64,000 nucleotides of DNA from Ianthella basta. Taxonomy: Eukaryota; Porifera; Demospongiae; Verongiida; Ianthellidae. Below, in pieces: positions 3,674-58,249 of this stretch. The notes below the pieces were generated by a model. That model saw only the letters and a list, made by a program, of their open reading frames with translations, did not search any database and had not been told where the DNA came from. The translations under genes were made by a program, and so were the position numbers. The stretch is taken from positions 1,225,302 through 1,289,301 of the forward strand of contig OZ025876.1 of NCBI GenBank assembly GCA_964019415.1. The letters are read 5' to 3'. Numbering within the stretch: position 1 is the stretch's first letter; every line of letters begins with the position of its first letter.

Positions 3674-4883
3674 CTAGTCTCTGGTGCGGAGCTTCATTTC
3701 AATGCTTTTGTGGCTGTGGGCAAACCCAGCCCATTGGTTGTCTCCATTGTATGGTCCATTTAGACCTGCATACCGGCAGGCAATGTACCACCATCCAGCA
3801 GAGTGTGACTGAGCACAACTGTATTTATTGTCCCTGTCATACGTTGTAAATGCTGCCCCATCATGGGTAGAGCCTCTGCAAATCTCCCCTTGCAGTGCAT
3901 CCCCTGCAGTGCCACTGTATGCTCCAATGTCCAGTCTGTAGTTGGTGAGGTTGTTGTTGACAGAGAAGAAGTTGTACTGTGCATACTTCTTGTTGCCATC
4001 AAAGTCACCCAAGTCCACTCTCAGCTCTGCCCTGAACACTGCTGCAGTTAGACAGTGGATCTTCTCCAGACCCAACCAGTATTCCCATTTAGGGTCACCA
4101 AACCCATTGACATACTCCGACCATCCCCTAGTGAAGTTGACTTCTCCATTCTTTCGTTTCTGGAAGACCACCCACTGTCCATTGTCCATATCACACCACA
4201 CATTGAATGGTTTGATGTGAGGGCACTGTGGGTCAATGGTGTAGACACCAGACGTGGTGCACCCTCTCTGGTACACCTCCCTGCAGTCACAGGGGAGACC
4301 AGGGCCTTGTGGAGTGCCTGGGGAGGGGAGAGGAGAGAGTGAGCCGTTATGGTACTTGCTAGATAAAGGGTCTGAGAGAGAGGAATTACTTATTTTTTCA
4401 GTGCAGCACATATGTGGAGAAGGACAATGCTCAGTATAGAGCACTTGACTTCACTCAGAACATTACCATGTAGATTTTCAACCATGAATGTTAGATATTT
4501 GACTGTGACACAAGATGTCTTCATTTTCAACCACCATGGTTGACCTTTCATGGCTTGAACTTCTCACTTCATGCCTGTGCTTCAACATTTCTCATGTAAC
4601 TTGTGTGTGTGTGGTCAAACCATCTTAGCCTTACTATGTTAAGGATTGACCAATTTTGAATGGTTTACATACGTACACATTGAATGAAGTAGTTGAATCA
4701 GTAGCCGACTATTATGTCATGACTGAACTTTTAATAATCCTCCACATCCTAATACTTCTGATCCCTTACCACTATTCTACTACTCCCCAGTGTGTAGCTG
4801 CTGGTATGTGTGTGTAACTCACATGAATACCCCAAGCTGATAAAGGTTGCAGTGAGAACTAGTGTGCTCACAAGTGGAGTCAT
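3674..4883 (-). CDS. FReD-1: secreted fibrinogen-related lectin, two exons, intact
   Basis: Exon 1 is 4883-4823 (61 nt, 20 codons plus one base, hydrophobic signal peptide starting MTPLVSTLVL and ending GYS). The intron is 4822-4318 (donor gtgagt, acceptor ccccag, phase 1). Exon 2 is 4317-3674, ending TAG. The joined frame is 705 nt, 234 aa. Exon 2 encodes a whole fibrinogen C-terminal domain: CREVYQRGC at the start, VWCDMDNGQWVVFQKR, the GF(G)DPKWEYWLGLE core, DRDNK in the calcium loop, CAQ..SAGWWY..C and LNGPYNG. By family knowledge (ficolins, tachylectin-5, FREPs) such domains bind acetylated sugars on microbes; that role is inferred here. The start is chosen because the same exon 1 precedes every full copy. 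The variable loop after DAL reads QGEICRGST, and the Cys usual two residues before LNG is Tyr (CRYAGLNG). Confidence 0.85.
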
Positions 4884-5782
4884 TCTCTTGGACTGTGTTC
4901 ACTGTCACTGGTGCAGTAGGTATACTGTTGACAAAACCTTGTGACTTGTTTCTCTAAAGCAGGCTCTATTCCTAGGAAAGTAGGTTGTTTACTGTGAAGA
5001 CAGGCCTCCTTTTTATAGCATCCTCCTCTGGGGTCATGGGGAGGACCTAATGATGTCTTTAAGATGACTCAATTAGTGGACAAAACAGATTATTATGTAA
5101 TATTCTGTGATTCTGTCATGTGAATCTGTGCAGGTGGCATTGACCTTGTCTCCACTGGGGTCATGGGGATAGACCTATAATACTATTAAAACAACTTCAT
5201 TAGTAGAAAGTTAATTACTTAATAATTGCAATATCCCTAACTCTCCCTTGTGGTGGTGTATCTGTGTGGGTCACTGTGCTGCTGCATTGTGGTGGTAAAC
5301 AGGTTTAGAAGTACTCTGGTGTCAGGGAGTTGACACAATATTGCAAAATCTTTGCAGCTGGTCATGTTCCAGGTTCAGTTTACAAATACCCCATAACTAT
5401 CAATGTAGTCATTGCACAAGTTGAATGTTGTTTCATCCTGCTCCAACTTGGGCCAGTGGGGGTACTTTGCATTTCTTGTAAGTAGTGTTTGTTAATATAT
5501 TAATTGCTACAACTGTTGTTGTCTAGTCATGAGTTGTGTACTGGATTGTGTCATGTACAGTATGTTATGAGTGGTGTGCACCATTTAGTACATCACTAGT
5601 GTCCACACAAACTTATCTAACCATTGCCCAATACAATAGGTGGACTTGGTCCTCATTACATAAAAGGGAATTGTGCCGATCCCTTCACATTAACCATACT
5701 ACACTGATAGTCTACATATTACTTCATCTTACATTCTTCTTATGTCAACCCTTCCAACTGTTACCAAGTGATATGTTGGTTG
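4884..5782. other. FReD-1 upstream flank
   Basis: Holds the FReD-1 promoter (TATA 5011-5017), the recurrent P block at 5310 and repeat-unit sequence shared with 35.8-36.6 and 42.3-42.9 kb. No gene seen. Confidence 0.6.
5011..5017 (-). promoter_or_regulatory. TATA box of FReD-1
   Basis: TATAAAA on the minus strand about 130 nt upstream of the FReD-1 ATG. Equivalent TATAAAA motifs precede exon 1 of FReD-3 (10420-10426), of the truncated copy with exon 1 at 14440-14500 (14616-14622), of FReD-6 (18878-18884) and of the copy at 35.7 kb (35850-35856). FReD-7, -8 and -10 carry TTTAAA-type variants instead (21005-21012, 26455-26462, 38308-38315). No clear TATA is seen before FReD-2 or FReD-17. Confidence 0.5.
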
Positions 5783-5999
5783 CACAGTGGAACATCAATC
5801 TATAATGGACACCATGGGGACCAGCTGTCTGTCCTCATTATGTATACAGAGGTATTCTTATTTGAGAAGTATTCTGGTATAGGTTGGTTATACTGTATAT
5901 CTCTACGTGCTATCACAGCTGGCTGTGTTATAGAGGTTTCATTCATAGTGCATGAGCTATCCTCATTCAGGGTGTTCTTTATAGAGAGGTACCACTGTG
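5783..5999. mobile_element. MITE, 217 bp, CACAGTGG termini
   Basis: Terminal inverted repeats of about 28 bp (CACAGTGGAACATC... and ...GAGAGGTACCACTGTG). Same family as 2285-2759. Further copies at 36626-36820 and 42951-43169 occupy the same position in their duplication units. Confidence 0.65.
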
Positions 6000-6399
6000 T
6001 GGTATGCATGTGCATTGTTTGTTGGCTAGTGCTGTCCTACCTTGTCCCCTGAACAGAGTGAACTGTGTGCTTGTGGTCATGTGGTGAGGACGGATGGAGA
6101 CAGTGTGCCTGCATGTTCCTATGTCCACAGTGTACGTACACTTTCTTGTTGATGGTTGTTATGCTGAGTGAGAGGAGTACCACCACTGTACCTCCATCTG
6201 GTGTACAACTGTTGGTCTGGTCATTAGATTATATACGTATGTACACTGTATGAACACATTTTACATGTACTTCATCACTGTATTATTGATCACACTATGC
6301 ACTACAATTGTAGACTACAGATCATTGGTTAACTCAATATCCTTGTGTGGTTCTAGTGCTGTGTCTGTAGCTAAACTGTGTTCAGTGATGGACACTTGA

Positions 6400-7406
6400 C
6401 TAGTCTCTGGTGTGGAGCTTCATTTCAATGCTTTTGTGGCTTCTGGTGAACCCAGTCCAGCGGGTGTCACCATTGTATGGTCCATTTAGGTGTGCACAGT
6501 AGCAGCTATTGTACCACCATCCAGATGATGCACAATTACCATCACTGCTCCTGTCATTGTCCCTGTCATATGTTGTAAATGCCATCCCATCATGATTTGC
6601 AGGCTAACTGCACCCCACCCAATGCAGTGCATCCCCTGCATTGCCACTGTATGCTCCAATGTCCAGTCTGTAGTTGGTGAGGTTGTTGTTGACAGAGAAG
6701 AAGTTGTACTGTGCATATTTCTTGTTGCCATCAAAGTCCCCCAAGTCCACTCTCAGCTCTGACCTGAACACTGCTGCAGTTAGACAGTGGATTTTCTCTA
6801 GACCCAACCAGTATTCCCATTTGGGGTCACCAAACCCATTGACATACTCCGACCATCTCCTGTTGAAGTTGACTTCTCCATTCTTTCGTTTCTGGAAGAC
6901 CACCCACTGTCCATTGTCCATATCACACCACACCCTGAATGGTCTGATGCGAGGGCACTGTGGGTCAATGGTGTAGACACCAGACGTGGTGCACCCTCTC
7001 TGGTACACCTCTCTACAGTCACGGGGGAGACCAGGGCCTTGTGGGGTGCCTGGGGTGAGGGGGTGGACTGGACAATTATGGTATACTTGCTAGATAAGGG
7101 TTTGTGAGAGAGAAGTATTGTCTGCATTGTTGCAGTACATTTGTGGAAAATATAATGGGCTTGGCTTGTGGAAAATATAATGGGCACCTTTCTCAGACTA
7201 TTTCCTGTGGAGAACTCTGGCTGTACTGCATAGCTCCCCCCTTCCGCACCACACCAACACACACATTCTATATAGTGCTTCTGTTCCCTTACCACCATTC
7301 TACTACTCCCCAGTGTGTAGCTGTTGGTGTGTGTGTGTAACTCACATGAATACCCCAAGCTGATGAAGGCTGCAGTGAGAACTAGTGTGCTCACAAGTGG
7401 AGTCAT
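6400..7406 (-). pseudogene. FReD-2: fibrinogen-related lectin gene with one in-frame stop
   Basis: Exon 1 is 7406-7346, the intron 7345-7050 (296 bp) and exon 2 7049-6400. The total of 711 nt keeps frame throughout, but codon TAG at 6606-6604 interrupts it in the variable loop just after VGCS. Downstream the frame is clean: [35 protein letters not shown], stop. The lesion falls in the most variable part, so the copy may be a recent pseudogene, a null allele or a base-call error. The product without it would be 236 aa. The terminal motif is KLHTRD rather than the usual KLRTRD. Confidence 0.75.
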
Positions 7407-9119: not shown

Positions 9120-10294
9120 CTAGTCTCTGGTGCGGAGCTTCATTTCAATGCTTTTGAGGCTTCTGGTATACCCAATCCAGCCGTTTTCTCCATTGTATGG
9201 TCCATTAAGATTTGCACACCAGCAGGCTTTGTACCACCATCCAGCAGAATGACGCTGAGCACAGTTGTCACTACTCCTGTCATTGTCCCTGTCGTATGTT
9301 GAGAATGTCATCCCATCATGAAGCCAGGGATGGTTCCCAGTAGCACAAGTCACCCCATGCAGTGCATCCCCTGCATTGCCACTGTATGCTCCAATGTCCA
9401 GTCTGTAGTTGGTGAGGTTGTTGTTGACAGAGAAGAAGTTGTACTGTGCATTCTTCTTGTTGCCATCAAAGTCACCCAAGTCCACTCTCAGCTCTGACCT
9501 GAACACTGCTGCAGTTAGACAGTGGATTTTTTCTAGACCCAACCAGTATTCCCATTTAGGGTCACCAAACCCATTGACATACTCCGACCATCCCCTAGTG
9601 AAGTTGACTTCTCCATTCTTTCGTTTATGAAAGACCACCCACTGTCCGTCGTCCATATCACACCACACCCTGAATGGTCTGATGCGAGGGCACTGTGGAT
9701 CAATGGTGTAGACACCAGACATGGTGCACCCTCTCTGGTACACCTCTCTGCAGTCACGGGAGAAACCAGGGCCTTGTAGGGTGCCTGGGGAGGGGGTGGA
9801 GTGAACAGTTATGGTACACTTGCTAAATGAAAGTTCTGTGCGAGAGAAGATTTGTCTGTACTGCTGCAGTACATTTAAGGAGAATGGAAAGAGCTTGGTG
9901 CTTCACACAGAACAGTTGCTACATGCAGCATGCAGCTGTTTCTACCACAAATGCCTTTGTTTGACATGATGACAAGGTGTTTAGATGGTACACATGAATT
10001 CAGGTACTGCACTTTGCACAGGTAGGTGGCACCCTCTTTCACACCCAATCATCCACTAGCCACTTTACAAGACCAATGATCCAGGCCAGTGCACCCTTCT
10101 TAGACTATTTCCTGTGGAGATCACTGGCTGTAATACATAGTTACCCCTCCTCACCCACACCCTAGTGCTTCTGTCCCCTTACAACCATTCTACTTCACCC
10201 CAGTGTGTAGCTGTAGGTGTGTGTGTAACTCACATGAATACCCCAAGCTGATGAAGGCTGCAGTGAGAACTAGTGTGCTCACAAGTGGAGTCAT
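9120..10294 (-). CDS. FReD-3: secreted fibrinogen-related lectin, two exons, intact
   Basis: Exon 1 is 10294-10234 (signal peptide), the intron 10233-9785 (449 bp) and exon 2 9784-9120; 726 nt, 241 aa. This copy has one of the longest variable loops: after DALHG comes VTCATGNHPWL before HDGM. The calcium loop DRDNDRSSD is complete, followed by NCAQRHSAGWWY and CANLNGPYNG. It also has unusual substitutions near the start (TLQGPGFSRDC) and FHKRKNG in place of FQKRKNG. A TATA motif lies at 10420-10426. Secretion and a lectin role are inferred from signal peptide plus domain. Confidence 0.83.
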
Positions 10295-12085: not shown

Positions 12086-13491
12086 CAATGAAGGGGAAGG
12101 ACCTCATGAATGTCTTTAAGATGATTTAATTTGTGGAAAAGATTGATTTTCTAGCAGGCTCTGTTACTAGGAAAGTAGACTATTTATTGCACAGACAAGC
12201 CTCCTTTAAATAACCCCCTCTACAGTCATGGGGAATAGGACCTCATGAATTCTTTTTAAAATGTACTACTTATTTAATTAGCAGATATAAATGTTACGTG
12301 CATATACGCATAACATCATATGTTATATAATACATAACTGTTTTGTTTATTTATGCATGCATGTAGCATTAACCCCACTTCCTTTGGGGTCTTGAGGAAA
12401 GACATCATGAATTTCTTTAGATGTCATAATTGGGAGGCAAGCCTGCATTAGCGAGCCCTACTCTGGTGTGTAGTCTAGCTCGGGGTTGGGATGAACATGT
12501 GATCTGTATGTGGTGCGCTACTATGGGTGGGTGTGAAACTTGTTGGTGTCTCTCTTTAGCCAGACCATGAGATGGTAGATGGGACTACCAACAATTTGCT
12601 GCAGATTCATGCTAAAGGTCCTTAGAATACCAAAATGGTGGGCAAAGAACCAGAGTAACTTCCAATTTGCAAAATAATAAAAATTCTCTACAAAAATTGT
12701 AAGGATGTAGGGATGGCATAAAAGGGACAGAAACAAGTAAAGGCTGTTACACAGTGGAGCATTATCCATGGTCCCTACATGCAAGAATGTTGCACTTTAT
12801 AGTTCTACATCCTTGAATGTAGGGACGATGGTTAATGCTCCACTGGTCCTTCTGGTTTGTGTGCTACAGCTGTCAGAGAAGAATAAGAGGAATAAGAAGA
12901 ATAAGAAGACGAAACGTGGGTAGTATCGAGGACGCTAGCTCTCTACCTGTAGCCGCACCTTCGCTGTGAAGTAAGGTTAGTTATGTGCACTGTTCAGTCC
13001 CCGCTTCGTCATGGTAAGCTTTGTTTGCCGGTTTTCGGTCCTGTTTAGGAGTAGCGTGACTTTTCGTTTGTATTACAGTATACAAACAACCACTGCCATC
13101 CCTACATAGACAGCACTACTGTGCTGTCTGATAGAGGGTGATGGTATGCTACAGATTCATGGTGTACTAGCTCGATGAAGTGAACAGAATGGATGAATGT
13201 GTGGCTGGTTCATTCTGTGTTAGGGATTCGGTCCTTTGGACATCAGGATTGGCTGCTTTGCACATATGCCACTTGTGGGACATTTGTTGGTAGTCAACAG
13301 ATTTCTATCTACTGTAAGATGTAAACCTCTAACAGTATGTATTGTTTTATCTGCGTATTGCCCTTCATCAAAGGCAGTCCTCAGATTGTATACTAAGTGC
13401 CACTCATCTTGTCTAAAATTATTGTATGTCTGTCCTTCGCTGCCTTGTGGTGTGTGTCACTGTGTATGTATGTGCATGTGTCTCTCTATGT
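12086..13491. other. Mixed repeat flank and a low-copy stretch
   Basis: 12090-12430 is duplicated flank. 12430-13490 is not repeated elsewhere in the window, contains a hairpin at 12752-12845 and a short Lys-rich frame near 12870-12925 ending TAG after a possible acceptor ('tgctacag'). I cannot assign a gene. Confidence 0.45.
12752..12845. repeat. Long hairpin, 34-bp arms
   Basis: Arms 12752-12785 and 12812-12845 (CAGTGGAGCATTA...CTACAT.CAAG) pair at about 31 of 34 positions around a 26-nt loop. It could be a small fold-back element or a structured RNA; the arm ends CAGTGG also recall the MITE termini at 2285. Confidence 0.7.
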
Positions 13492-14500
13492 GATCTTCTC
13501 TAGACCCAACCAGTATTCCCATTTAGGGTCACCAAACCCATTGATATACTCTGACCATCCCCTGGTGAAGTTGACTTCTCCATTCTTTCGTTTCTGGAAG
13601 ATCACTCACTGTCCATTGTCCATATCACACCACACCCTGAGTGGTTTGATGTGAGGGCACTGTGGGTCAATGGTGTAGACACCAGACGTGGTGCATCCTC
13701 TCTGGTACACCTCTCTGCAGTCACGGGGGAGACTAGGGCTTCGTGGGGTGCCTGCAGATACAGGTGAGTAGGTGCACATTATGTTTGTGTCAAGTGATTG
13801 CTTGTAATATATAGAAGTGCATTGATTGGTCTTGCAGGGAGCTTGGAGTTGTGTTATTGTGTACACTAATTAGGTATTTGGGTGACCTGAGAAGACATGC
13901 CAGTGTTCAATATTGAATTTTGGTCTGTGTAACAGACACAATGCACCATAATGCTGGACACACCCTGTTTTAGGAAACCCAACAATTGCTGAGGAGGCAA
14001 ACTGTCTTAAACAACACAAGTGACCGGGTCATGTGGTTGCTTCATTTAGTATCTTCAGACTTCATTTGCTGTGTAAAGATACAGATCACCAACAGTGTAT
14101 CACAGTGTCTTTACACATTTGCACTGCTCTACAGTGCCCTATCACTATCATTTCAGATAGTTGGCCATTGTGGTAATTGGCCGTGGTCACAAGATACACT
14201 TTAAGGCATCTCTTTCTTTGATTTTGTTGTTTCATCTTTATATACCAATCAGGAAGACAGATTTGCATGAAAGTGTGCACAGATTGTGTCAGTTTAACTC
14301 ATTGTATGGAATTGTTGTGTACACCAGCCACAGCTATTTGTCAGTTGTCTGTGTGTTCGTGGGTGAATGAAAGGGAGGTCAGTTCTCATCACTGTGTGTG
14401 CTCCTTTCGCTACTCTTCCCACTGTGTACAGTAACTCACATGAGTGGCCCAAGCCAATGATGGCTGCAATGAGAAGGAGTACACTCATCACTGGAGTCAT
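13492..14500 (-). pseudogene. FReD truncated gene with type-B signal exon
   Basis: Exon 1 is 14500-14440 (61 nt, starting MTPVMSVLLL and ending GHS, donor gtgagt). Exon 2 is only the 5' part, 13751-13492, running from the acceptor to WLGLEKI, then breaking into unrelated sequence. Codon TGA at 13608-13606 replaces the Trp of GQWVV, a second disabling change. The 'MTPVM' signal exon is shared only with FReD-6, so this is the remnant of a paralogous subfamily. A TATA motif is at 14616-14622. Confidence 0.75.
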
Positions 14501-17093: not shown

Positions 17094-18777
17094 CTAGTCT
17101 CTGGTGCGGAGCTTCATTTCAACGCTTTTGTGGCTGTCGGTAAACCCAACCCAGCGGTTGAGCCCTCTGTATCGTAAATTCAGGTTTCCACACTGGCAGT
17201 TATTGTACCACCATCCAGCGGCATATGACTGAGCACAGTTGCCTCTAGACCTGTCATTGTTCCTGTCATATGTTGAGAATGCCATCCCACCATGGTTCCT
17301 GTGTGTACCACAACCTACCCCATGCAGTCCATCCCCTGCATTGCCGCTGTATGCTCCAATGTTCAGTCTGTAGTTGGTGAGGTTGTTGTTGACAGAGAAG
17401 AAGTTGTACTGTGCATACTTCTTGTTGCCATCAAAGTCACCCAAGTCCACTCTCAGCTCTGCCCTGAACACTGCTGCAGTTAGACAGTGGATCTTCTCTA
17501 GACCCAACCAGTATTCCCATTTTGGGTCACCAAACCCATTGACATAATCCAACCATCTCCTGGTGAAGTTCACTTCTCCATTCTTTCGTTTCTGGAAGAC
17601 CACCCACTGTCCATTGTCCATATCACACCACACATTGAATGGTTTGATGCGAGGGCACTGTGGGTCAATGGTGTAGACACCAGACGTGTTGCACCCTCTC
17701 TGGTACACCTCTCTGCAGTCACGGGGAAGACCAGGGCCTCGTGGGGTGCCTGAGGAGAGGAGAGGGAGAAAGGGAATATTGAGCATAGAGGTAGTGATGT
17801 ATCATGTGTAGAATAGCCTCATACAGGTGGGTAGGTGTACATTGCATTTGTGTCAAGTGATTGCTTGTAATAGAAGTGCATGGTTGTTCTTGTAGGGAGC
17901 CTGGAGTTGTGTTAACGTGTACACCACTGAGGTGTTTGGGTGACCCAAGAAGACATGCCAGTGTTCAATATTGAATTTTGGTCTGTGTAACAGACACAAT
18001 ACATCACAATTATGGACACACCCTGTTTCAGGAAACCCAACAATTGCTGAGGAGGTAAACTGCATGTCTTCACCCAGCACACAGTGCAATGATGTATATA
18101 GCACTTATAATTACCTCTGGGCTACTGCTCACTTCTCTGTAGTTAAACTATACCTATTTGTATGTGTACGTATACAAGACTCTGGTTTCATTTCAGTAAC
18201 ATGCATGGAAACAAGTACTTTTAGTGCCCATTCACTTAATGTATGCTCACTGGAAGATGGGTAAGTGTATGTTAATGTAGGGAGGAGGTGTGTCTTAAGC
18301 AACTCAAGTGACTGGGTCATGTAGTACTACGTACATTTAGTATCTCCAGGCTTCATTTGCCATAATATACAATATGCACATGTGCCCATAATAACGCCAA
18401 CAGTGTCTTTACTCATTTTTTGCTCTACAGCCCTGCATCATTTCAGTTATAGTGGGCCACTGCAGTAATTGACTGTGGTCACAAGGTACAGTATATACGC
18501 ACACTTTAAAGCACCTCTTACTTTGATCTTGTTGTTTTGTACATGAAAATCAGGAAGATTTATTTGAAAGTGTGCACAGATTGGGTCGGTTTAACTTGTT
18601 GTATGGAATTGTTGTGTACACCAGCCACAGCTACGTATTTGTCAGTTGTGTGTGTGTGTCTTCGTGCATGAATGAAAGGGCGGTCAGTTCTCATCACTGT
18701 GCTGTGCTGTGTAACTCACATGAGTGTCCCAAGCCAATGATGGCTGTAATGAGGAGTGCCCTCATTACTGGAGTCAT
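17094..18777 (-). CDS. FReD-6: divergent fibrinogen-related lectin with type-B signal exon
   Basis: Exon 1 is 18777-18720 (58 nt, 19 codons plus one base, starting MTPVMRALLI). The intron is 18719-17750 (970 bp, the longest of the set). Exon 2 is 17749-17094; 714 nt, 237 aa. The domain is complete, but the usually fixed NLNGPYNG reads NLNLRYRG and the flanking Cys pair is CQCG. The variable loop is VGCGTHRNHGG and the calcium loop DRNNDRSRGN. With the truncated copy at 13.5-14.5 kb it forms a second subfamily sharing signal exon, intron and TATA (18878-18884). An extra exon inside the long intron cannot be excluded. Confidence 0.8.
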
Positions 18778-23190: not shown

Positions 23191-23682
23191 AACCTTAACT
23201 ATACATACCCCCATCTGGTGTACAACTGCTGGTCTGGTCAGTAGATTATATATGTATAATTATATGTACGTACACTGTACAAGCAGGTAGGTTGTTTACT
23301 GCGAAGACGAGCCTCCTCTCTATGAGGGAAGACCTCATGAATGTCTTTGGGATAAAATGGATGTCTAATGACTCTGCATGTCTTGTTTATGTGTGGGTGA
23401 GGCATTGACCCCACATCCTTTGGGTTCATGAGGATCAAAAGACATCATGAATACCATGAATATGAAAAATCATTTACTTCATAAGTCCCAGGTTTCCCCT
23501 TGTGGTAGTGTCTCCACCCACACTGCATGCATTGCCGTAGTGCACTGTGGTACAGGGTTTTGCAAATGGTTGTTTCAAATGTTATTCGACTCATGACTCA
23601 CCTTTCAACTTTGACCTGATACTAGAGGTGGGTCACGTGCATGAGTCGAGTGATGATCGCTGCAACCATTTTGCAAAACCTG

Positions 23683-23854
23683 TCATTGTCCCCGTCATAT
23701 GTTGAAAGTGCCATCCCATCATGACTTATATTATCATTACAACCCAGTGCATCCCCTGCATTGCCACTGTATGCTCCAATGTCCAGTCTGTAGTTGGTGA
23801 GGTTGTTGTTGACAGAGAAGAAGTTGTACTGTGCATACTTCTTGTTGCCATCAA
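23683..23854 (-). pseudogene. FReD internal fragment, second copy
   Basis: Same FDGNKKYAQYN...GCNDNISHDGM...YDGDNDRFC fragment as at 1.4 kb, within the second large duplicated unit. The reading frame is open, but there is no start exon and no domain end, so it is not a gene on its own. Confidence 0.7.
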
Positions 23855-27595: not shown

Positions 27596-27635
27596 CTCTC
27601 CCCTCCTTAACTTCACACTGGGTTTGGTTCCTCAA

Positions 27636-30402: not shown

Positions 30403-30405
30403 CTC

Positions 30406-32727: not shown

Positions 32728-32751
32728 CTAGATCCCACTTCTGACACCAAT

Positions 32752-40791: not shown

Positions 40792-40819
40792 GGTCGCGAC
40801 AACCATTTTGCAAAACCTG

Positions 40820-42262
40820 TCATTGTCCCCGTCATATGTTGAAAATGCCATCCCATCATGACTTATATTATCATTACAACCCAGTGTATCTCCTGCATTG
40901 CCACTGTATGCTCCAATGTCCAGTCTGTAGTTGGTGAGGTTGTTGTTGACAGAGAAGAAGTTGTACTGTGCATACTTCTTGTTGCCATCAAGGCCACCCA
41001 AGTCCACTCTCAGCTCTGCCCTGAACACTGCTGCAGTTAGACAGTGGATCTTCTCTAGACCCAACCAGTATTCCCATTTAGGGTCACCAAACTCATTGAC
41101 ATACTCCGACCATCTCCTGGTGAAGTTGACTTCTAATAATCTGTTTTGTCCACTAATTGAGTCATCTTAAAGACATCATTAGGTCCTCCCCATGACCCCA
41201 GAGGAGGATGCTATAACAAGGAGGCCTGTCTTCACAGTAAAGAGCTTACTTTCCTAGGAACAGAGCCTACTTCAGAGAAACAAGTCACAAGGTGTTGTCA
41301 ACAGTGTACCTACTGCTACAGTGACAGTGAGCCGCAGTCCAAGAGAATGACTCCACTTGTGAGCACACTAGTTCTCACTGCAGCCTTCATCAGCTTGGGG
41401 TATTCATGTGAGTTATACACACACCAACAGCTACACACTGGGGTGTAGTAGAATGGTGGTAAAGGAACAGTGGCATTAGGTGTGGCCTGGAGGGTTATCA
41501 AAAGTTCAGACATTGACATAATAGACTACTGATTCAACTACTTCATTCAATGTGTACCACCTACATATTATGTAAATCCAATCCAGATAAACCCATCCTT
41601 AACACTGTACATGCATGTAAGGCTAAGATGGTCTGACCACACAAATATTAGTAATGTAGAAGCACAGCTGCAGGTATAAAATGGATTGTTCAAGAAAGGG
41701 CTGGTTCTCCAATACCAGCTTCACAACAGGGTTGAAAACCTTGCCAACATTTCGACCAGAGCAGAAGCTGGTATTGGAGAACCAACCCTTTCTAATGCCT
41801 GAGCCAGCTGAGAAGCCCTCACTTCATGGAATGTTCAAGCCATGAAAGATCAACCATGGTGGTTGAAACTGAGGACATCTTGTGTTAAATGAAGTGAAAT
41901 ATCTACAGTAACTTTCATATAGTTAAACATCTACACGGTAATGTTCTGTGTGAAGTCATGAGCTTTACACTGAGCTTTGTCCTTCTCCACATATGTGCTG
42001 CACTGAAAACGTATGTAATTCCTCTCTCACAGACCCTTCATCTAGCAAGTATCATAATGGTTCGCTCTCTCCTCTCCACTCTACAGGCACCCCACAAGGC
42101 CCTGGTCTCCCCCGAGACTGCAGGGAGGTGTACCAGAGAGGGTGCACCATGTATGGTGTCTACACCATTGACCCACAGTGCCCTCGCATCAGACCATTCA
42201 GGGTGTGGTGTGATATGGACAATGGACAGTGGGTGGTCTTCCAGAAACAAAAGAATGGAGAA
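40820..42262. pseudogene. FReD gene broken by an internal 1.1-kb inversion
   Basis: On the minus strand, 41133-40820 encodes WSEYVNEFGDPKWEYW... to DRDNDRFC. Then 41134-42262 is inverted: on the plus strand lie exon 1 (41347-41407, MTPLVSTLVL..., donor gtgagt at 41408) and the 5' part of exon 2 (42087-42262, acceptor ctacag, reading to QKQKNGE). The two exon-2 parts meet exactly at the same point of the domain (between VNF and KNGE codons), so one inversion explains the layout. The domain end is missing beyond the MITE at 40819. Confidence 0.8.
41695..41791. repeat. Long hairpin, 28-bp arms
   Basis: Arms 41695-41722 and 41764-41791 (AAGGGCTGGTTCTCCAATACC...) pair at 27 of 28 positions around a 41-nt loop. 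It lies in the intron of the inverted FReD copy. Confidence 0.8.
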
Positions 42263-44665: not shown

Positions 44666-46126
44666 TCTCTTGGACTGTGTTCACTGTCACTGTAGCAGTA
44701 GGTACACTGTTGACAACACCTTGTGACTTGTTTCTATGAAGCAGGCTCTGTCCCTTGGAAAGTAGATTGTTTACTGTCAAGACACACACCTTCTTTTAAA
44801 GCAGCCTCCCCTAGGGTCATGGGGAAGGACCGAATGAATGTCTTTAAGATGATTTAATTTGTGGATAAGATTGATTCTCTAGTCACCCAGTCTTGTGCAT
44901 CTGTATATGTGGCATTGACCCCACCTCCTCTGATGTCATGGGGATAGACTTATAATCTATGAATTTCATTACAATTACTACATTTAGTAGAATGTAGACT
45001 GCCTTGTCTGTCCCTGACTCCTCCTTGTGGTGTCTCTGTGTGGGTCAGTGCACTGTGGTGATAAACAACTTTGGAGCAATGACCAATAATTGGACTAATG
45101 ACTTATAATTTGTACCCTGGTGTCATGGTGTTAACACAGTATTGTGAAATCTTTGCAGCTGGTCATGTTCTAGGTTCAGTTTGCACACCTCATAACTATC
45201 AATACAGTACAAGTTGTGAGTTGTCTCATCCTGCTCCATGCAACTTAGGCCAATGGGGTTGCTTTGTATTTCTTATAGTGGGTGTGTCCTGTCATGAGTT
45301 GTGTACTGGATTGTGTTGTGTATGTAATGAGTGGTGTGTGCACCATTTAGTACATCACTATAGTGTGCACACACTCTTATGTCACTCCACTCACCATTGC
45401 CCACTACACACTAGGTGGACATGGTCCTCACTGGATCAGATGGACATTAACCATAGTATACACTAATAGTCTGTTACATATTTACCTGAGAAGTGTCCCT
45501 TTAGTGCAGATGCAGGCACTTCTGAAGCTAGTGCTTTTGAAACAAAGCACTTTCAATCTTAGCTACCAAGTAATGGCTACAGCATGAAACCTATACTGAG
45601 GGAGTGTAAGTTAGAGTAGCCGCTTTCACTCTCACAAGAAGACGCTTTCCTCTATATAGCCTATATACAGTATGTCACTCACCATCTTCTACTGCAAGCT
45701 ATAATGATAGCAAAAAGCCGTTGCACCATCTCCCAAGGAGGAGTTTTGTAACAACCAAATGTGCTGCAAATTCCATAATCAAGTTCGCTTTCCTTCGTAA
45801 AACAAAGATGGTGTCCCATAGTAGTGTATGGCAAGTTGGAGCAAAACCTTCATTTTGCAAACCTTCACTAAAACATTCCATCGAGGACACCCTCCGGATA
45901 GCACTTAGAAGGTAGGACCATGTTCGCTGTGAATTCTTTGGTGGATTTCAGAGATTAGTGTGACCGCAATATCAATCAGCCTAGCTCCATTACATTAAGA
46001 TTCGCCTTCTACCAGTGATGCATTAGTAGTATATACAGTATAGCCTCAATCTCGCTCACTCTCCTGTTCACCTACCTTCACCTCCTCCTTTCTTCTTCCC
46101 TCCCCAATTCCCACCCCTCCCATTAG
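44666..46126. other. FReD-13 upstream flank and low-copy region before the RBM-like locus
   Basis: 44.67-45.45 kb is repeat-unit flank with a P block at 45114. 45.5-46.1 kb is not duplicated in the window. A frame at 45721-45915 ending before 'gtaggacc' could be an exon, but neither it nor its antisense matches a family I know, and I see no N-terminal RBM exons. Confidence 0.45.
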
Positions 46127-46314
46127 TCCTCATTCTAATGGGATTGGACCACCACACATCAGAGGAGAGTGTGCATCAAGCTCTGCAGGCAGTAACCTCC
46201 CTCCCCATCCAGGACATCCGAGTCATTAAGGATAAGATCTCTGGGATGGGAAGAGGATTCTGTTTTGTGGACCTTGCTTCAATTGAGGTAAGTGTTGTGG
46301 CCAGGGGTGGCTGT

Positions 46315-46315
<1 letters not shown>

Positions 46316-46390
<75 letters not shown>
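46316..46390. repeat. (GT)n microsatellite where an RBM exon is missing
   Basis: About 37 dinucleotides in the interval where the second half of the RRM would be expected. Confidence 0.95.
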
Positions 46391-46391
<1 letters not shown>

Positions 46392-49372
46392 ATTTGCTAG
46401 GTAGGTTAGTGCCAGTGTGCATTACCTGTTACCTTTCAGTGTTGTACTTGTGCCCCACCCTCCACGCACACCCACAGGAGCAGTGATCCATCTCCCAGCA
46501 ACATACTCACTAGACACAACTTCAGGCTACTACTACAACTCAGCCACTGGACTCTACTACGACCCAAATTCAGGAGTATGTCTGTTTGCTGACTGTGACT
46601 CTATGTGTGACCACCTCTAATGGATGGCAATAGCAGATTGGGCATAGTACATACATGTGATGATATAGTGAGGGATAGCTTGCTCTGTTGCTGTCAGTAG
46701 TGAGGGAGATGCACATACATGAATGTATTCGATGCTGCCCTGTTTGAGTCTCACTCATGATACGTCCACTACCGCCCCTTCCTCCTTTCATCTCTTTGCT
46801 ATGGCTTCCTCTCACCACCTGTCGGACGTCCAGTATTACTACAACAGTTCAACCAGTCAGTACTGTTATTATGACGCTGCTACCCAGCAGTATGTGCCGA
46901 TTGACAAGTGAGTGTTTGTATGCACTCACATAAGTACAGCACTGTGCGTGTGTGTATGTGCATGTGTGTACACATGTGTGCATGCATGTGTCTGTGTGTA
47001 ATGTGTACACTGTGGGTAGGTGTACATATATGAAACACGCTACCTCCCTCTCACCACTTGTCTGCTATGATATTGTGTACACTGTGTTTTGTATAGCACT
47101 GCCAGTGGTAGTGCAGGACAAGAGGAGGGAGAACAGCAGTTGGAAGGAGGCCAGAAGAAGAAGAAGAAAGAGAAGGAAGTTGCCGTCACAATGTCTAGTG
47201 GCACACCAAGTGCAAAGAAGGTTTGCAGTGTTAGCCAAGCACATACGCATGCACACAGACAGATGCACAAACATTGTAACTGAAGGAAATGGCTGTTGTA
47301 CTCTCTCTTCTCCCTCCTCTTCCAACTGATACCAGATCATGAAGGACATGGAGCGCTGGGCCAAGAAGCAAGAGAAACAAAGCAAGTCTCTTCAGCCACA
47401 GCCGGAGCAAGTGAAGGAAGTGGAAGAGGTTGAGACTGTGAAGCCAGGTATGGGTTCACACAGAGTGTGTCACTACCAAAGAACCCATCTCTCCTCACAA
47501 CTGGTAGTGCAGAAAGCGACCTGATGGTAGGTGGGGGTTGTGTGTGTGTGTGTCAGTGTTGACAGCAGTCTGTGTCTTTGTCATGTGGGATTGATGTGTT
47601 ACTGTTGTGTTGACAGCATTGTGTGTGACTTTGTGTGACTTTGTCACTTCTGTTGCCTTGTCAGCAATTGGAGGTGCCCAATCTATTAGCAGACACAGTT
47701 GTTGAGCCAGCACTAGGTGAGTGTGGAAGGCAGAGCTGCTCTTGCTATGTGAGATGTTTGTGGTGTGTGTCACTAAGCTTGTCATGTAGAAGGTGACATG
47801 TACCCTGCATGTGGTATCAACAGCTGTAGTCACTCTACACTGTGTACAGTGGAATACAGGGACTTTCTGTGATGTTGCAAATGAACTGAAATCCATACAC
47901 AGTGTGATGTGTCTATACATAGTGATTGGTCCATGTGACTGTCACATGGTGTACTGATTTCAGCTCATTTCACAACATCATGGAAAGTCCCTGTACTGTT
48001 TGGGGAATTAGTAGATCCTCTAGAGAGTGAGAGGCAGTGAGTTGAGTCACTGTGACCTAGTGGTTCACTTCCCCCTCCCTTCCTGACTGCGGTAGACTCG
48101 AGTCTCCCACCTGGTGCAGACCCTGACCCCACCCACACAGACTGGAGCTAACTTGCTTGTCTCTTGTGCAAGAGAAAGTTTGAGAGTAAGGACAAACTTG
48201 TCAAACATCAGCAGTTCTCGAGTCTTCACAAGGTGTGTGTGTGTGTGTGTCTGTGTGTGTGTAGTGTGCGTGCGTGTGTGCGTATGTGTGCGTGCATGTG
48301 CTGTACTTTCATTGTGTGGTGTTTGTCTTTGTGTTGATGGTGCTTTCCATCTTTGAAACCCACACCTCGACCCACACATGCACTCAATTCTGTCAATATC
48401 TTGTGCAGGAAAACTTAGAAAAGGAACAACGGCCAAAGCCTTCAGTCTCTGCAGAGGTGAATGTAATGACCATCGCTGATCTTATGGTGGCTAATGATTG
48501 TCTGTATTGGTGAATACACAAAGGCACAGATGGTATGTGTGTTCTGTCCTCCTTTTCAGGTCAAGTACCGAGACCGAGCCAAAGAGAGGAGGGAAAAACA
48601 CAGTCAAATTGAACCCATCATCCCTAAGTGGAAGAGAGACTATGACGAAGAACGAATAGACAGCAGGTGAGAATGCTCCTCTGTTTGGTTAGCTAAATGG
48701 AATGTACGTAATAGTAGCTCCATTGTACCCTAGCTAAGATATGTGATGGGGCACTGGGTGTCCCTTGTACGTATGCGCTTTCCCTTATGTATTACCACTT
48801 GCCGTTCATTCCATTTTGTCCATGTAGTAGTGGCGTGAATGTCATAGAGACCGTGTCTGTTCCAAAGGAGGCTCCAGTTGCTGAGAACAAAGGGAACAAG
48901 TTGTTGCATGTGAGCCTGGCAACCTCTAATTGACATTGCAGACAGACTCTCACTAACATTGTGAACCTGTTTATTAAGACCACTCTTGGACTGCCTTCAG
49001 TAGTATCAACCTGATTATTAAGACCACTCATTGTAGGACTGCCATTAGGTAACTGTAGGAGGTGCTCTGTGAGCATACAATGTGTGCTCAGTCATGCACA
49101 TGGCACTGAGGTGAAGTCCCTGCACACTTCAGGAGTTCTTCGCTCTTTAGAAGTCCTCGTGTGCATCCACTGTCCAGTGTACAGTGGAGACTTATTTCAG
49201 CAATTGATCCACTGTTACACTAATACATGCATAGTGCAATAGCATGGTCAGTGTTGCTGTGTTCAATTTGGAGTGTTAGTGCTTGTTGTCTTCATGTTGC
49301 TGCAGGCAATGGGCTGGTCTGAAGGTCAAGGTCTTGGAAGAAACAACCAGGGCATCACGGCACCTATAGAGG

Positions 49373-50053: not shown

Positions 50054-50941
50054 CTAGTCTCTGGTGCGGAGCTTCATTTCAATGCTTTTGGGGCTGTAAT
50101 TAAACCCAATCCAGCGGGTGTTCCCATTGTATGGTCCATTCAGGTTTGCACACTGGCAGTTATTGTACCACCATCCAGCAGAGTTTAACTGAGCACAATT
50201 GTGATTGCTCCTGTCATTGTCCCTGTCAAATGTTGTAAATGCCATCCCATCATGGTTCCCACCACCACCACAACTTCCATGCAGTGCATCCCCTGCATTG
50301 CCACTGTATGCTCCAATGTCCAGTCTGTAGTTGGTGAGGTTGTTGTTGACAGAGAAGAAGTTGTACTGTGCATACTTCTCGTTGCCATCAAAGTCACCCA
50401 AGTCTACTCTCAGCTCTGCCCTGAACACTGCTGCAGTTAGACAGTGGATCTTCTCTAGACCCAACCAGTATTCCCATTTAGGGTCACCAAACCCATTGAC
50501 ATACTCCAACCATCGCCTGTTGAAGTTGACTTCTCCATTCTTTCGTTTCTGGAAGACTACCCACTGTCCATTGTCCATATCACACCACACATTGAATGGT
50601 TTGATGCGAGGGCACTGTGGGTCAATGGTGTAGACACCAGACATGGTGCACCCTCTCCGGTACACTTCTCTGCAGTCACGGGGAAGACTAGGGCCTTGTG
50701 GGGTGCCTGGGGAGAGGGAGAGGAGAGAGTGAACCATTATGGCACTTGCTAGATGAAGGGTCTGTGAGGGAAGTTCTGTCTGCACTGCTGCAGATACATT
50801 TGCCGAATGGAATGGGCTTCTGCCCTTACGACTATTCTACTACTCCCCAGTGTGTAGCTGTTGGTGTGTGTGTAACTCACATGAATACCCCAAGCTGATG
50901 AAGGTTGCAGTGAGAACTAGTGTGCCCACAAGTGGAGTCAT
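50054..50941 (-). CDS. FReD-14: secreted fibrinogen-related lectin, intact
   Basis: Exon 1 is 50941-50881 (signal peptide with the variant MTPLVGTL), the intron 50880-50707 (174 bp, the shortest) and exon 2 50706-50054; 714 nt, 237 aa. The variable loop is SCGGGGN, the calcium loop FDRDNDRSNHNC, and the pocket side GWWYNNCQCANLNGPYNGN. The tail before KSIEMKL reads NYSP instead of NSH. The gene lies on the opposite strand just beyond the 3' end of the RBM5/10-like locus. Confidence 0.85.
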
Positions 50942-52199: not shown

Positions 52200-52935
52200 A
52201 TTGATGCGAATGTGTTCTGCAAATTGTATTGTTATTTCATTGGATACTTTGAAGTAACATAAATGGCACCCAAACTGGGACTGTGAATTTAATTGATTCT
52301 GCAATCATACAATACAATCAAACTGCAAGATGAAGACGATAAGAGATGTACGTGTATAAGCAATATGAACTGAGAATGGATAACCCTTACCCTAACCCTA
52401 ATCCTCCCTAACCCTAAACCTTTATATATTGTTCACAACCTGTTGTTTGCAGTCTTATAAACCTCCAAGAAGGTGATTTGTGTAAACCTCATGAGATAAG
52501 TTGCAACACAGTAATCAGACATCACTTAAGCTAGCTTGATTGGGTAAGTACAGTACATTAACCATACCTTGCAGTATGATTAAGTGTGCATGTGTATGAT
52601 TAACACAATGTGTGTATACTGAGCACCCACTGACTGCTACACTGTGTACATTGATAGTACTAGTGGGTGTATAGCTAGTTGTTCCCATCTACTGTACAAC
52701 ACTACTTCACAGGGCAGGGCAGACAATTTACAGCACCATGAGGAAGAAAAATGCCAACATCAAGATAAAGTACTCTCCTTTTGTATGAAACCTGGTGAGC
52801 CTGACAGTGGGGTGACACTAATACTGTGTGTGCTTGTTCTGAATGTGTGTTCAGAGGACTCTCACTGGACAGCAGAGGGTTTCACTTAGTGCTGACTTTG
52901 AGGGACTGAATCCTAACGTTAACCCAATCTTAACT
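52200..52935 (+). pseudogene. UPF2 head fragment between the RBM tail copy and FReD-15
   Basis: In order: sequence matching the UPF2 5' flank ('ggatactttgaagtaacataaatggcacccaaactgggac'), a decayed exon 1 ('gcaagatgaagacgataaga'), exon 2 (from about 52441), the GRPV exon ('aggaagaaaaatgccaacatcaag') and the RTLTEQQ exon (from about 52856, with SLDSRG-type changes). Then FReD-15 sequence begins. Confidence 0.65.
52381..52420. repeat. Interstitial telomere-like repeats
   Basis: About five CCCTAA-type units with variants (CCCTTAC, CCCTAAT). It lies inside a UPF2-head fragment. Confidence 0.75.
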
Positions 52936-55642: not shown

Positions 55643-56114
55643 CTAGTCTCTGGTGCGGAGCTTCATTTCAATGCTTTTGTGGCTGTTGGTAAACCCATAC
55701 CAGTAGCTGTTTCCACTGTATGGTCCATTCAGATCTGCACAGTAGCAGTAGTTGTATATACCACCATCCAGCAGAGTTTAACTGAGCACAATTGTGATTG
55801 CACCACCACTGTTCCTGTCATGTGTTGAGAATGCCATCCCATCAAGGTTCCCAAATGTACCACAGCTCCCATGCATTGCATCCCCGGAATTGTATGCTCC
55901 AATGTCCAGTCTGTAGTTGGTGAGGTTGTTGCTGACAGAGAAGAAGTTGTACTGTGCATACTTCTTGTTGCCATCAAAGTCACCCAAGTCCACCCTCAGC
56001 TCTGCCCTGAACACTGCTGCAGTTAGACAGTGGATCTTCTCTAGACCCAACCAGTATTCCCATTTAGGGTCACCAAACGTATTGACATACTCCGACCATC
56101 CCCAGTTGAAGTTC
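55643..56114 (-). pseudogene. FReD 5'-truncated copy fused to an RBM tail fragment
   Basis: The 3' three quarters of a FReD exon 2 ends normally at TAG (55645-55643). It has lost two codons in the AYSGNAGDA segment (AYNSGDA) and carries a frameshift in the calcium-loop region, so the frame from DGMAFST runs into a stop at ITIVLS. Homology ends at about 56114, where the plus-strand sequence turns directly into an RBM5/10-type last exon. It is a clear chimeric breakpoint. Confidence 0.75.
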
Positions 56115-56222
56115 TGGGTAACAAATCACTGGACTATGAGCTGACAGGGGTGCACACGTACATGACGGCAGTGAAGAGGATGACAGCTGCAAGATGGAAG
56201 ATGTTGGAAGATGACAAATAGA
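56115..56222 (+). pseudogene. RBM last-exon fragment fused to FReD
   Basis: Begins inside the exon (LGNKSLDYELTGVHTYM...) without an acceptor, directly abutting a truncated FReD, and reads to TAG (MLEDDK end). It is followed, as elsewhere, by a UPF2-head fragment. Confidence 0.65.
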
Positions 56223-56239
56223 ACATGTGCATGCACAAT

Positions 56240-56955
56240 AACATTTGGCTTTTGTTTGGATTGTTCTGTAAATTGTATTGTCATTTCATTGGATAATTGC
56301 AATTATGGAAATGGTACCCAAATTGGGACTGTAAATTCAATTAATTGTGCTATATATTAACACACAAACTGCAGGATGGAGATGTAAGAGTTGTGTAGGC
56401 AATTCATGAACTGATGAGTGGATGTAGCTAAGTATTCTTTAAAGTGCCTGCATATCACATGGCCTGTTGTTTGCAGTTCCCTTGAAGAATTAAGGCAATT
56501 CATTTGTGTTAACCTGAAGAGGCATAGAAATTACAACACTGTATATAGTCAGACGTATGTACATTGAGATAATATAATTGTACTTAAATGAACCATACAG
56601 ATTCTTGTGCGCATACTGAGCCCATACAAACTGATACACTGTGTTTGGTGGCAGTGGGTGTACTCTTAAGCTGTTCCAATTTACAACATTACTTCACCAC
56701 AGAAGCCTGTTTAATAATTAGAGCACCAGTGTGGAATTAAGAAGGATGCCAACATCAAGAAGAACAAGCTCTCTTCGTTTGTAAGGGACCTCAGGCTGGT
56801 GAACCTGACACTGTTAGCACTTTCTGTTTGTGTATAAGGATGCAATGCCGTGTGTGTGTGTGGTCTGTCTGTGTGTCCAGAGGACTCACCCTAGCTGAGT
56901 AGCAGAGGGATTCTCTTCTGACTTTGGGGGACTGAATCCCTCTAACCTAACCTAT
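56240..56955 (+). pseudogene. UPF2 head fragment between the RBM tail copy and FReD-17
   Basis: UPF2 5' flank, decayed exon 1 (about 56371), exon 2 (from about 56477, 'ttcccttgaagaattaagg'), GRPV exon remnant (about 56700-56780) and RTLTEQQ remnant (about 56878-56950, with an in-frame TAG-type change). All frames are lost. Confidence 0.6.
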
Positions 56956-57179
56956 AGCTACGTAACTGTGCCTCCATCTATTGTACAATTTCTGGCCTGG
57001 TCATTAGATTATATACGTATGTACACTGCATGAACACATTTCACATGTACTTCATCACTGTATTATTGATCACACTATACACTACAATTGTAGACTACAT
57101 ATCATTGGTTAACTCAATATCCTTGTGTGGTTCTAGTGCTGTGTCTGTAGCTAAACTGTGTTCAGTGATGGACGCTTGA

Positions 57180-58249
57180 CTAGTCTCTGGTGCGGAGCTT
57201 CATTTCAATGCTTTTGTGGCTGTTGGCACGTCCGCCAGTCCAGCGGGTGTCTCCATTGTATGGTCCATTCAGGTGTGCACAGTGGCAGTAATTGTACCAC
57301 CATCCACCAGAGTGTGACTGAGAACAGCTATAATTATTCCCCCTGTCATTGTCCCTGTCATGTGTTGAGAATGCCATCCCATCATGATTTCCAGCCCAAC
57401 CAGCGCACCCCACCCCATGCAGTGCATCCCTTGCATTGCCACTGTATGCTCCAATGTTCAGTCTGTAGTTGGTGAGGTTGTTGCTGACAGAGAAGAAGTT
57501 GTACTGTGCATACTTCTTGTTGCCATCAAAGTCACCCAAGTCCACTCTCAGCTCTGACCTGAACACTGCTGCAGTTAGACAGTGGATCTTCTCTAGACCC
57601 AACCAGTATTCCCATTTCGGGTCACCAAACCCATTGACATACTCCGACCATCCCCTGTAGAAGTTGACTTCTCCATTCTTTCGTTTCTGGAAGACCACCC
57701 ACTGCCCGTTGTTCATATCACACCACACATTGAATGGTTTGATGCGAGGGCACTGTGGGTCAATGGTGTAGACACCAGACGTGGTGCACCCTCTCTGGTA
57801 CACCTCTCTGCAGTCACGGGGGAGACCGGGGCCTCGTGGGGTGCCTGGGGAAAGCAGAAAGAGTGGACCATTGGTACAGTATGTAGGTACATGCTAGATG
57901 AAGGGTACGTATGTGTGAGACAAACTGCATCTTTACTGCAGTACATGTATTATGGAGATGGAAGAAGCATGTCGCTAAACACACAGCACACTTATTAGCT
58001 AGCAGATCTCAACTGCGAATAACAGTAAGATAAGATGTCTCAGTATCAACCACTTAATTAAGGCTGTTAAGCTTCGGTTGATGAAGATCTTCCATATGGT
58101 TGAACCATCTCCTATTGTACCTCTTCTTCCCACACACAAAGTGTCTACTGCTCCCCAGTGTGTAGCTGTTGGTGTGTGTGTAACTCACATGAATACCCCA
58201 AGCTGATGAAGGCTGCAGTGAGAACTAGTGTGCTCACAAGTGGAGTCAT
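57180..58249 (-). CDS. FReD-17: secreted fibrinogen-related lectin, intact
   Basis: Exon 1 is 58249-58189, the intron 58188-57845 (344 bp) and exon 2 57844-57180; 726 nt, 241 aa. The variable region is VGCAGWAGN, the calcium loop DRDNDRGNNYSC, then [36 protein letters not shown]. Apart from a few substitutions this matches FReD-7. It also shows FFSVSNN and a MNNGQW variant. It is the last FReD gene before UPF2. Confidence 0.85.

Follow-up and report, generated by a model that had tools for sequence, protein, structure and literature searches.

A tandem array of fibrinogen-related genes in the demosponge Ianthella basta with apparently homogenised frames and exchanged ligand-pocket cassettes

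The array and its gene models

A 64,000-nucleotide stretch of the genome of the demosponge Ianthella basta (C9:1225302-1289301, hereafter the window) carries a tandem array of fibrinogen-related domain (FReD) genes, each joining a putative signal exon to a single fibrinogen-like (FBG) exon. The genome (209 Mb in 96 contigs) was profile-searched for the FBG domain, and gene models were obtained by virtual splicing of all the full copies in the window. An earlier note on this DNA had proposed at least eleven such genes, nearly all on one strand and eight of them open, with a signal exon of 58 or 61 nt, a phase-1 intron and a single FBG exon, and splicing bore out this architecture in all 11 full copies (a to k), every one on the minus strand. 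The introns are GT-AG in 11/11 copies, 174–970 nt long and with a phase 1 donor; exon 1 is 61 nt long in 10 copies and 58 nt only in d, and exon 2 encodes one FBG domain throughout. Eight of the 11 copies (a, c, d, f, g, i, j and k) are open, with products of 234–241 aa, and the others are broken by an in-frame TAG (b), a frameshift (h) or a 1-nt insertion into a stretch of C residues where exon 2 begins (e).

By inspection, exon 1 encodes about 20 hydrophobic residues, a putative signal peptide, which is followed in the spliced products by about 10 residues and the FBG domain. The codon at the exon junction encodes Cys in ten copies, directly after the hydrophobic residues, and Tyr in j. Copy j, the only one in that scan, matched Pfam Fibrinogen_C (PF00147) with 199 bits against a cut-off of 22 (E 1.2e-58), and all full array copies exceeded the cut-off in the genome search, h across a shortened span. 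The exon 1 region of d is about 78% identical to that of j, and its exon 2 frame resembles that of other copies. Within each domain we distinguish a frame (the first 130 domain codons), a cassette of about 200 bp on the calcium- and ligand-binding face, and a tail (the last ~12 codons). The full copies, in window positions, are as follows.

3674–4883, minus strand: FReD gene a; exon 1 4883–4823, exon 2 4317–3674; open, 234 aa; cassette ~3898–3716
6604–7406, minus strand: FReD gene b; exon 1 7406–7346, exon 2 from 7049; in-frame TAG, broken
9120–10294, minus strand: FReD gene c; exon 1 10294–10234, exon 2 9784–9120; open, 241 aa; cassette ~9365–9162
17094–18777, minus strand: FReD gene d; 58-nt exon 1 18777–18720, exon 2 17749–17094; open, 237 aa
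19898–20873, minus strand: FReD gene e; exon 1 20873–20813, exon 2 from 20563; frameshifted; chimera of an f-like body and a k-like cassette
19940–20143, minus strand: cassette of e, 98% identical to the k cassette
25368–26323, minus strand: FReD gene f; exon 1 26323–26263, exon 2 26011–25368; open, 234 aa
37213–38176, minus strand: FReD gene g; exon 1 38176–38116, exon 2 37865–37213; open, 237 aa
43659–44665, minus strand: FReD gene h; exon 1 44665–44605, exon 2 from 44227; frameshift within the cassette
50054–50941, minus strand: FReD gene i; exon 1 50941–50881, exon 2 50706–50054; open, 237 aa
53148–54382, minus strand: FReD gene j; exon 1 54382–54322, exon 2 53791–53148; open, 234 aa; junction Tyr for Cys
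57180–58249, minus strand: FReD gene k; exon 1 58249–58189, exon 2 57844–57180; open, 241 aa; cassette ~57425–57222

The genome-wide profile search, which the earlier note had named as a check, returned at least 141 FBG stretches over the cut-off (150 of 178 candidates scored), 75 of which cover at least 187 of the 221 profile positions without a stop, and revealed an array longer than the one first described, with three further full copies 0.5–18 kb to the left of the window. FReD clusters lie on C2 (2.2, 10.05, 12.2 and 15.1–15.3 Mb), C6, C9, C16 and C19, in addition to single copies. The earlier note had also considered that the array might be an assembly artefact of one gene. However, among the 14 full copies of the array (91 pairs) the 300 bp preceding exon 2 show a mean difference of 50%, the DNA past the 3' untranslated region (3'UTR) one of 54% and the cassettes differences of 2–31%, and because flanks and cassettes differ to this extent the array is not one gene falsely multiplied.

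Constant frames, diverged cassettes and mosaic copies

The codon and protein comparisons were based on 12 copies of the C9 array; b and h were omitted, and e was kept in its own frame from the Asp of DCREVY onward. Mean protein identity (66 pairs) was 93.5% over the first 130 domain residues and 70.5% over the remainder. Silent divergence (dS) was 0.107 in the frame versus 0.251 in the cassette plus tail, and replacement divergence (dN) 0.031 versus 0.189. At ungapped codons with an invariant amino acid, dS was still 0.093 in the frame (98 codons) versus 0.294 beyond it (13 codons), a ratio reached in 45 of 2000 codon shuffles, and in the cluster at 10.05 Mb of C2 (C2:10.05M) the values were 0.135 (108 codons) and 0.481 (21 codons), the ratio being reached in 3 of 2000 shuffles. 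The jump in dS persists where the amino acid does not vary, and selection on amino acids alone is therefore not its cause.

The same contrast was found in nucleotide diversity along the genes (14 copies; 13 for the upstream alignment, from which d was omitted). Diversity was 0.02–0.04 from about 80 bp before the ATG through exon 1 and 0.38–0.59 over the 300 bp that precede exon 2. Exon 2 opens with 30 bp at 0.12, the frame otherwise lies at 0.03–0.08 and the cassette at 0.12–0.31. Values of 0.01–0.05 follow in the tail and the 3'UTR, except for the last 3'UTR block (0.10), and values of 0.43–0.63 past the 3'UTR. Most introns and flanks of the array copies differ near-randomly. One explanation for this pattern would be RNA-templated conversion, with spliced transcripts as the template and homogenisation of the segments of the mature mRNA alone. 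By inspection, the conserved blocks start by a TATA/initiator-like site, stop just past an AATAAT-like signal and omit most of the intron, as such a process would have it. However, about 45–50 bp at the intron 5' end also fall in the first conserved block, introns are shared among e, f and g, and exon 1 of d differs although its exon 2 frame matches the others, and we consider a role for an RNA template highly improbable.

The family includes copies whose segments have different closest relatives, and the sequence comparisons show that cassettes have been exchanged between genes in two clusters. Recent duplication of about 2 kb has given rise to e, f and g, in which the upstream region, exon 1, intron and frame are 87–100% identical to e in 60-bp windows. 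In contrast, the cassette of e is only 58–88% identical to those of f and g in these windows, and identity recovers in the tail. Compared with k, the e cassette is 95–100% identical, the intron 21–61% and the upstream region 37–65%; blastn aligns the two upstream regions at 77%. Thus, e and f differ by 2.7% in the intron, 3.1% in the frame and 3.7% in the 3'UTR but by 20.6% in the cassette, whereas e and k differ by 2.4% in the cassette and 57% in the intron. Exon 2 and the 3'UTR hold 59 informative sites, at which f differs from k and e matches one of the two; e is k-like at 41/44 sites within 20177–19789 and at 3/15 outside, and none of 2000 shuffles was as extreme. Downstream, e differs by 18% from f and by 61% from k. 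Since f-like sequence flanks the k-like tract of e to either side, we infer conversion rather than paired crossovers.

The other two duplicates are also composite. Copy f has the intron common to e and g (2.7–3.7% different), and its cassette (12.4%) and downstream DNA (9.9%) are nearest to those of a; g has an intron like those of e and f and shares its downstream DNA with b and h (8.7–8.8% different). No donor was found for the g cassette, whose best match in the genome was 77–78% identical over most of its length. Across the array, identities in frame and cassette are uncorrelated (Spearman −0.13, 66 pairs), and the distances for intron, frame, cassette, tail, 3'UTR and downstream DNA are weakly correlated (Spearman −0.27 to 0.27, 91 pairs). 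In the C2:10.05M cluster (9 copies compared, with C2:10046010 omitted as having too little downstream sequence), C2:10077418 pairs an intron like that of one mate (6.6% different) with a cassette like that of a second mate (2.7%, against 51% in the intron).

An ordinary birth-and-death family, with the frame strongly purified down to the silent and UTR level, a less constrained cassette and no exchange, would account for part of these observations. The frame has a dN/dS of 0.29, and it also diverges less than the cassette between chromosomes, in a comparison of 12 C9 copies with five C2:15.1 copies (dS 0.18–0.24 in the frame and 0.33–0.56 in the cassette). However, one genealogy cannot yield both the e–f and the e–k differences in intron and cassette, and birth and death without exchange is therefore unlikely.

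Targeted hypermutation, that is, a raised mutation rate in the cassette with divergence in place, would explain why dS is raised there as well as dN and why duplicates as recent as e, f and g carry very different cassettes. It is also favoured by the C2:10.05M cluster, where cassette dS (0.5–1.0 in most 20-codon windows) exceeds the diversity of the upstream flank (0.22–0.40 in most windows), and the g cassette, for which no donor was found, leaves room for it in single copies. However, mutation would not make the e cassette near-identical to that of k despite introns that cannot be aligned, and cassette divergence in C9 (mean 0.22) is not above that of the alignable upstream flank (0.22–0.33). 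As a general explanation, hypermutation thus appears very unlikely.

The predicted ligand pocket, other clusters and the neighbourhood of the array

FIBCD1 is described, in the excerpts consulted, as binding acetyl groups through Tyr405, His415, Tyr431, Trp443, Ala432 and the cis peptide Asn413-Cys414, with a Cys401-Cys414 disulphide joining the cis peptide to the calcium site (PMC3908420). We mapped the pocket by the Cys spacing in the alignment with ficolin-1 and by this FIBCD1 numbering; AlphaFold2 modelling of nine window copies had been of low confidence (pLDDT 31.6). The Tyr405, Asn413 and His415 equivalents map without gaps in C9 because ficolin-1 has the same 13-residue interval between the two Cys. 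By inspection, the loop for Tyr431 and Ala432 looks shorter in the sponge copies, and these two residues were left unmapped. Equivalents of Cys401 and Cys414 are present in 12/12 C9 copies, forming a predicted bond, and the Cys, Trp and some Gly residues of the cassette are invariant in the same copies. In the DxD calcium motif, a putative metal site, the first Asp is found in 12/12 copies and the second in 9/12, with Asn in d, g and j.

The three mapped positions are among the most variable of the domain. Of the 204 columns of the C9 alignment, ranked by entropy with ties, the His415 equivalent ranks 1, the Tyr405 equivalent 2 and the Asn413 equivalent 9. The residues in the 12 copies are LYRHHYHSNNLH at the Tyr405 equivalent and YQERWQHQWQYH at the His415 equivalent, so that neither S1 residue of the acetyl lectins is conserved. 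The ranking was restricted to the five clusters with at least three copies in the set; C2:2.2M and most of C16 and C19 lie outside the clusters analysed. Including ties, the pocket columns rank 6–18 of 208 in C2:10.05, 14–30 of 206 in C2:12.2, 1–23 of 229 in C2:15.07 (three copies) and 1–16 of 213 in C6. Over the five clusters, the three equivalents have the top three mean variability percentiles of 188 columns, and none of 20000 random triplets was as variable, nor any of 20000 drawn within the 66 columns of the C-terminal part. The pocket positions were chosen after variation in C9 had been noticed by eye; the other clusters provide the fairer comparison, although their sequences had also been seen before. 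For C2:12.2M, 16 of about 20 full-length matches were taken, with 15 rows in the dS profile and 14 in the pocket ranking, which omits C2:12274092 and in which 13 rows reach the cassette. Nine of the ten full matches of C2:10.05M formed the first set, seven entered the codon tests (two have in-frame stops) and the tenth was held out.

Codon site models (own code, fixed trees) indicate that amino acids at the predicted pocket are under positive selection. For the C9 cassette (65 codons, 12 copies), twice the log-likelihood difference between M2a and M1a (2dlnL) was 36.95, with w2 4.26 for 24% of sites, and the flagged sites include all three pocket positions; the value was 33.26 without e and 19.69 with just the 8 intact window copies, compared with 5.71 for the C9 frame. 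In C2:10.05M, 2dlnL was 14.53 for the cassette and 4.01 for the frame. The invariant Cys, Trp and Gly residues beside sites with w2 of about 4 are not what merely relaxed constraint, as under birth and death, would leave. A second, smaller variable patch was observed at domain codons 40–59 of C2:10.05M (dS 0.49, dN 0.17; flanking windows dS 0.12 and 0.16), where the site model flags codons 50 and 54; at the matching place, the C9 frame model flags column 52, besides column 28 elsewhere.

Several results weigh against a homogenised frame with exchanged, selected cassettes. Recombination can inflate site-model tests of this kind; the C2:10.05M cassette test was weaker, and its three flagged sites exclude the pocket columns. 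In C2:12.2M, dS is high already from codon 60, with no clean jump at the cassette, and patchiness inside the blocks, frame or cassette, is weak: the observed sum was reached in 59 and in 18 of 1000 shuffles. Furthermore, homogenisation within arrays alone does not predict that dS between chromosomes is lower in the frame than in the cassette, which needs cassette lineages that predate the clusters, interchromosomal exchange or a silent rate that is lower in the frame. For four held-out copies we had predicted beforehand lower silent divergence in the frame than in the cassette and new pockets, the first part of L033 having already been seen. Silent divergence from their mates was lower in the frame than in the cassette in 4/4 copies (0.142 versus 0.582 for L032, with 7 mates; 0.090–0.104 versus 0.497–0.572 for L033–L035, with 2 mates). 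However, the prediction of new pockets largely failed in these four copies: L032 shares the cassette of a mate, and L033–L035 share almost one cassette (dS among them 0.03–0.05, and 0.04–0.05 in the frame).

Some features of the other clusters are recorded here. Copies L033–L035 (C2:15109200-15302000) lie up to 190 kb apart, and a variable-loop Cys of L035 is replaced by Trp. FBG pieces occur within open frames of 1771–1977 aa at C16:5210784, C2:2281419 and C19:607918, possibly representing larger FReD proteins or insertions, and FBG matches on C19 occur on both strands.

The earlier note had reported many partial copies in addition to the genes. Besides the broken copies, the profile search found seven partial FBG matches in the window, one of them on the plus strand.

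1376–1564, minus strand: FBG relic, profile positions 100–163
13489–13728, minus strand: FBG relic, N-terminal part with a stop
23667–23855, minus strand: FBG relic, profile positions 100–164
34281–35723, minus strand: relic with an FBG fragment at 34281–34472 and an intact-looking exon 1 from 35723
40807–41133, minus strand: FBG relic adjoining the inverted piece
41178–42262, plus strand: inverted partial copy, FBG 5' part at 42110–42262
55661–56116, minus strand: FBG relic with a TAA

As candidate cassette donors the relics performed poorly, being among the best seven listed matches for 4 of the 12 C9 cassettes, at only 72.7–81.2%. Short relic matches to the e cassette (42–52 bp at 90–96%, and one of 72 bp at 88%) neither show nor exclude a donor.

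Other sequences lie within and beside the array. A long terminal repeat (LTR) element at 27324–33020, between f and the 34-kb relic, has 273-bp LTRs that are 99.6% identical and long gag-, reverse transcriptase- and integrase-like frames; it is a recent insertion into the array, which we take to be of the Ty3/Gypsy type. Just upstream of f (26591–27327), a tandem duplication with a 397-bp unit (98% matches) carries a piece of the array upstream region twice. A reverse transcriptase-like fragment, presumably of non-LTR type, lies between array relics (34934–35497, minus strand; no Pfam match), and short interstitial telomere-like CCCTAA repeats are found at 52381–52421. Inside the array, a possible RNA recognition motif exon (46030–46404, plus strand), which we assume to be RBM5/10-like, scored below the Pfam threshold (16.5 bits against 20.7). 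Exon-like frames at 60953–61707 (plus strand; no Pfam match) look to us like UPF2, so that the array apparently stops next to a housekeeping gene. Contig C96 is the 21.2-kb mitochondrial genome, in which the ATP6 match holds two TGA codons and an atp9-like frame has 78 codons. Its order is cox2-K-atp8-atp6-R-cox3-Q-W-nad2 (protein genes named from translations; the tca-anticodon tRNA, labelled SeC by the annotation tool, read as Trp). A mitochondrial atp9 and this gene order are marks of demosponges. Between the genes, similar strings of peptide sequence occur repeatedly, which suggests repeated elements.

A possible recognition repertoire and its relation to known systems

Our preferred reading, with a probability of about 0.7, is that this demosponge FReD array combines a homogenised frame with a selected and exchanged pocket cassette, for varied recognition. 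Each gene of this array, one of several of its kind in the genome, consists of a near-constant frame (signal exon, about 130 FBG codons, the last ~12 codons and the 3'UTR) around a cassette of about 200 bp. Cassettes have been swapped between copies by recombination in two clusters, gene conversion being the simplest form; conversion would also keep the frames alike, and the near-identical frames would serve as homology arms for the exchange. The proteins would be secreted, fold as FBG domains and bind differing glycans or other microbial or symbiont ligands, and selection for a broad recognition set would maintain cassette diversity. At the level of sequence, the array copies show an intact domain, a constrained frame and, by codon model, positively selected pocket positions; secretion, binding of glycans or other ligands, and recognition of microbes or symbionts are proposed. 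The array is probably a germline repertoire of secreted lectin-like proteins for the recognition of microbes or symbionts. The earlier note had suggested an expanding and turning-over family of recognition lectins, and this fits with the diversity and selection at the ligand pocket, the broken copies and the relics, but the copies are mosaics rather than uniformly diverging duplicates, and the immune role that it had inferred can still be only a suggestion. More tentatively, and with considerable doubt, several chromosomal arrays of one-domain lectins might form a dedicated sponge framework-plus-cassette system, with their near-identical bodies as homology arms and pockets continually swapped in the germline, possibly also somatically, so that individuals, and perhaps cells, would differ.

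The mosaic structure and selection could be real and yet serve self- or allorecognition, or cell adhesion in aggregation, rather than encounters with microbes. Sponges have allorecognition, and secreted binding proteins that are hypervariable would lend themselves to either role. However, ficolins and other FReDs are the solved structures that match best in sequence, and sponge fibrinogen-domain genes respond to microbial cues: in the excerpts consulted, microbial signals alter the expression of those of Dysidea avara, and in Cliona varians a ficolin-like gene reportedly rises on symbiont reinfection (PMC6208332). Fibrinogen-like domains are also named among the lipopolysaccharide-responsive genes of Halichondria panicea, again in an excerpt (PMC8242945). 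We therefore regard a function in allorecognition or adhesion as possible but rather unlikely.

By what means animals that lack antibodies and rearranging receptors generate large numbers of binding specificities is an open question, and the array suggests a way in which an antibody-less animal could obtain diverse recognition proteins. From the genome of one early-branching animal one can read how the binding site varies, where that variation is bounded and how it moves from gene to gene; the exact residues and copies for testing are indicated, and in five clusters high ranks fall on the same positions of the pocket. If the more tentative reading is true, a framework-plus-cassette arrangement would be a germline, possibly also somatic, diversification system at the base of animals. 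Among the matches listed in open-licence PubMed Central, no title or abstract start concerned the exchange of FBG pocket cassettes between sponge FReD genes. The ingredients each have precedents; of their combination within the FBG pocket of a sponge there was no instance among those matches.

In clustered protocadherins, the major histocompatibility complex and conotoxins, concerted evolution or conservation in one part accompanies diversity in the binding or active part; these are other folds in other animals than the sponge FReDs. The SpTransformer (185/333) genes of sea urchins, tandem and mosaic, resemble the array as a diversified gene family that, in the partial accounts consulted, is immune-responsive, but their products are not known as folded lectin domains with a characterised pocket. 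The snail FREPs and sFReDs of Biomphalaria are likewise large FBG families partly diversified by gene conversion, B. glabrata being credited, in the excerpts consulted, with 73 FReD genes and with FREP3.2 variants arising by conversion and point mutation (PMC7588048). However, snail FREPs carry immunoglobulin superfamily (IgSF) domains, for which the sponge two-exon models have no room; their FBG domain is, in the same excerpts, the more conserved part (median identity 67%) and the IgSF part the more variable (PMC7588048), whereas the sponge diversity lies inside the FBG pocket. Ficolins, tachylectin-5A (TL5A) and FIBCD1 share with the sponge copies the FBG domain itself (ficolin-1 match E 4e-42), the Cys401-Cys414 pair with its 13-residue spacing and, in 9/12 copies, both Asp residues of the DxD motif. 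The sponge two-exon models differ from ficolin and FIBCD1 in having no collagen or membrane part, and two S1 residues that FIBCD1, TL5A and L- and M-ficolin have in common according to excerpts of PMC3908420, Tyr405 and His415, correspond to the two most variable positions of the sponge array.

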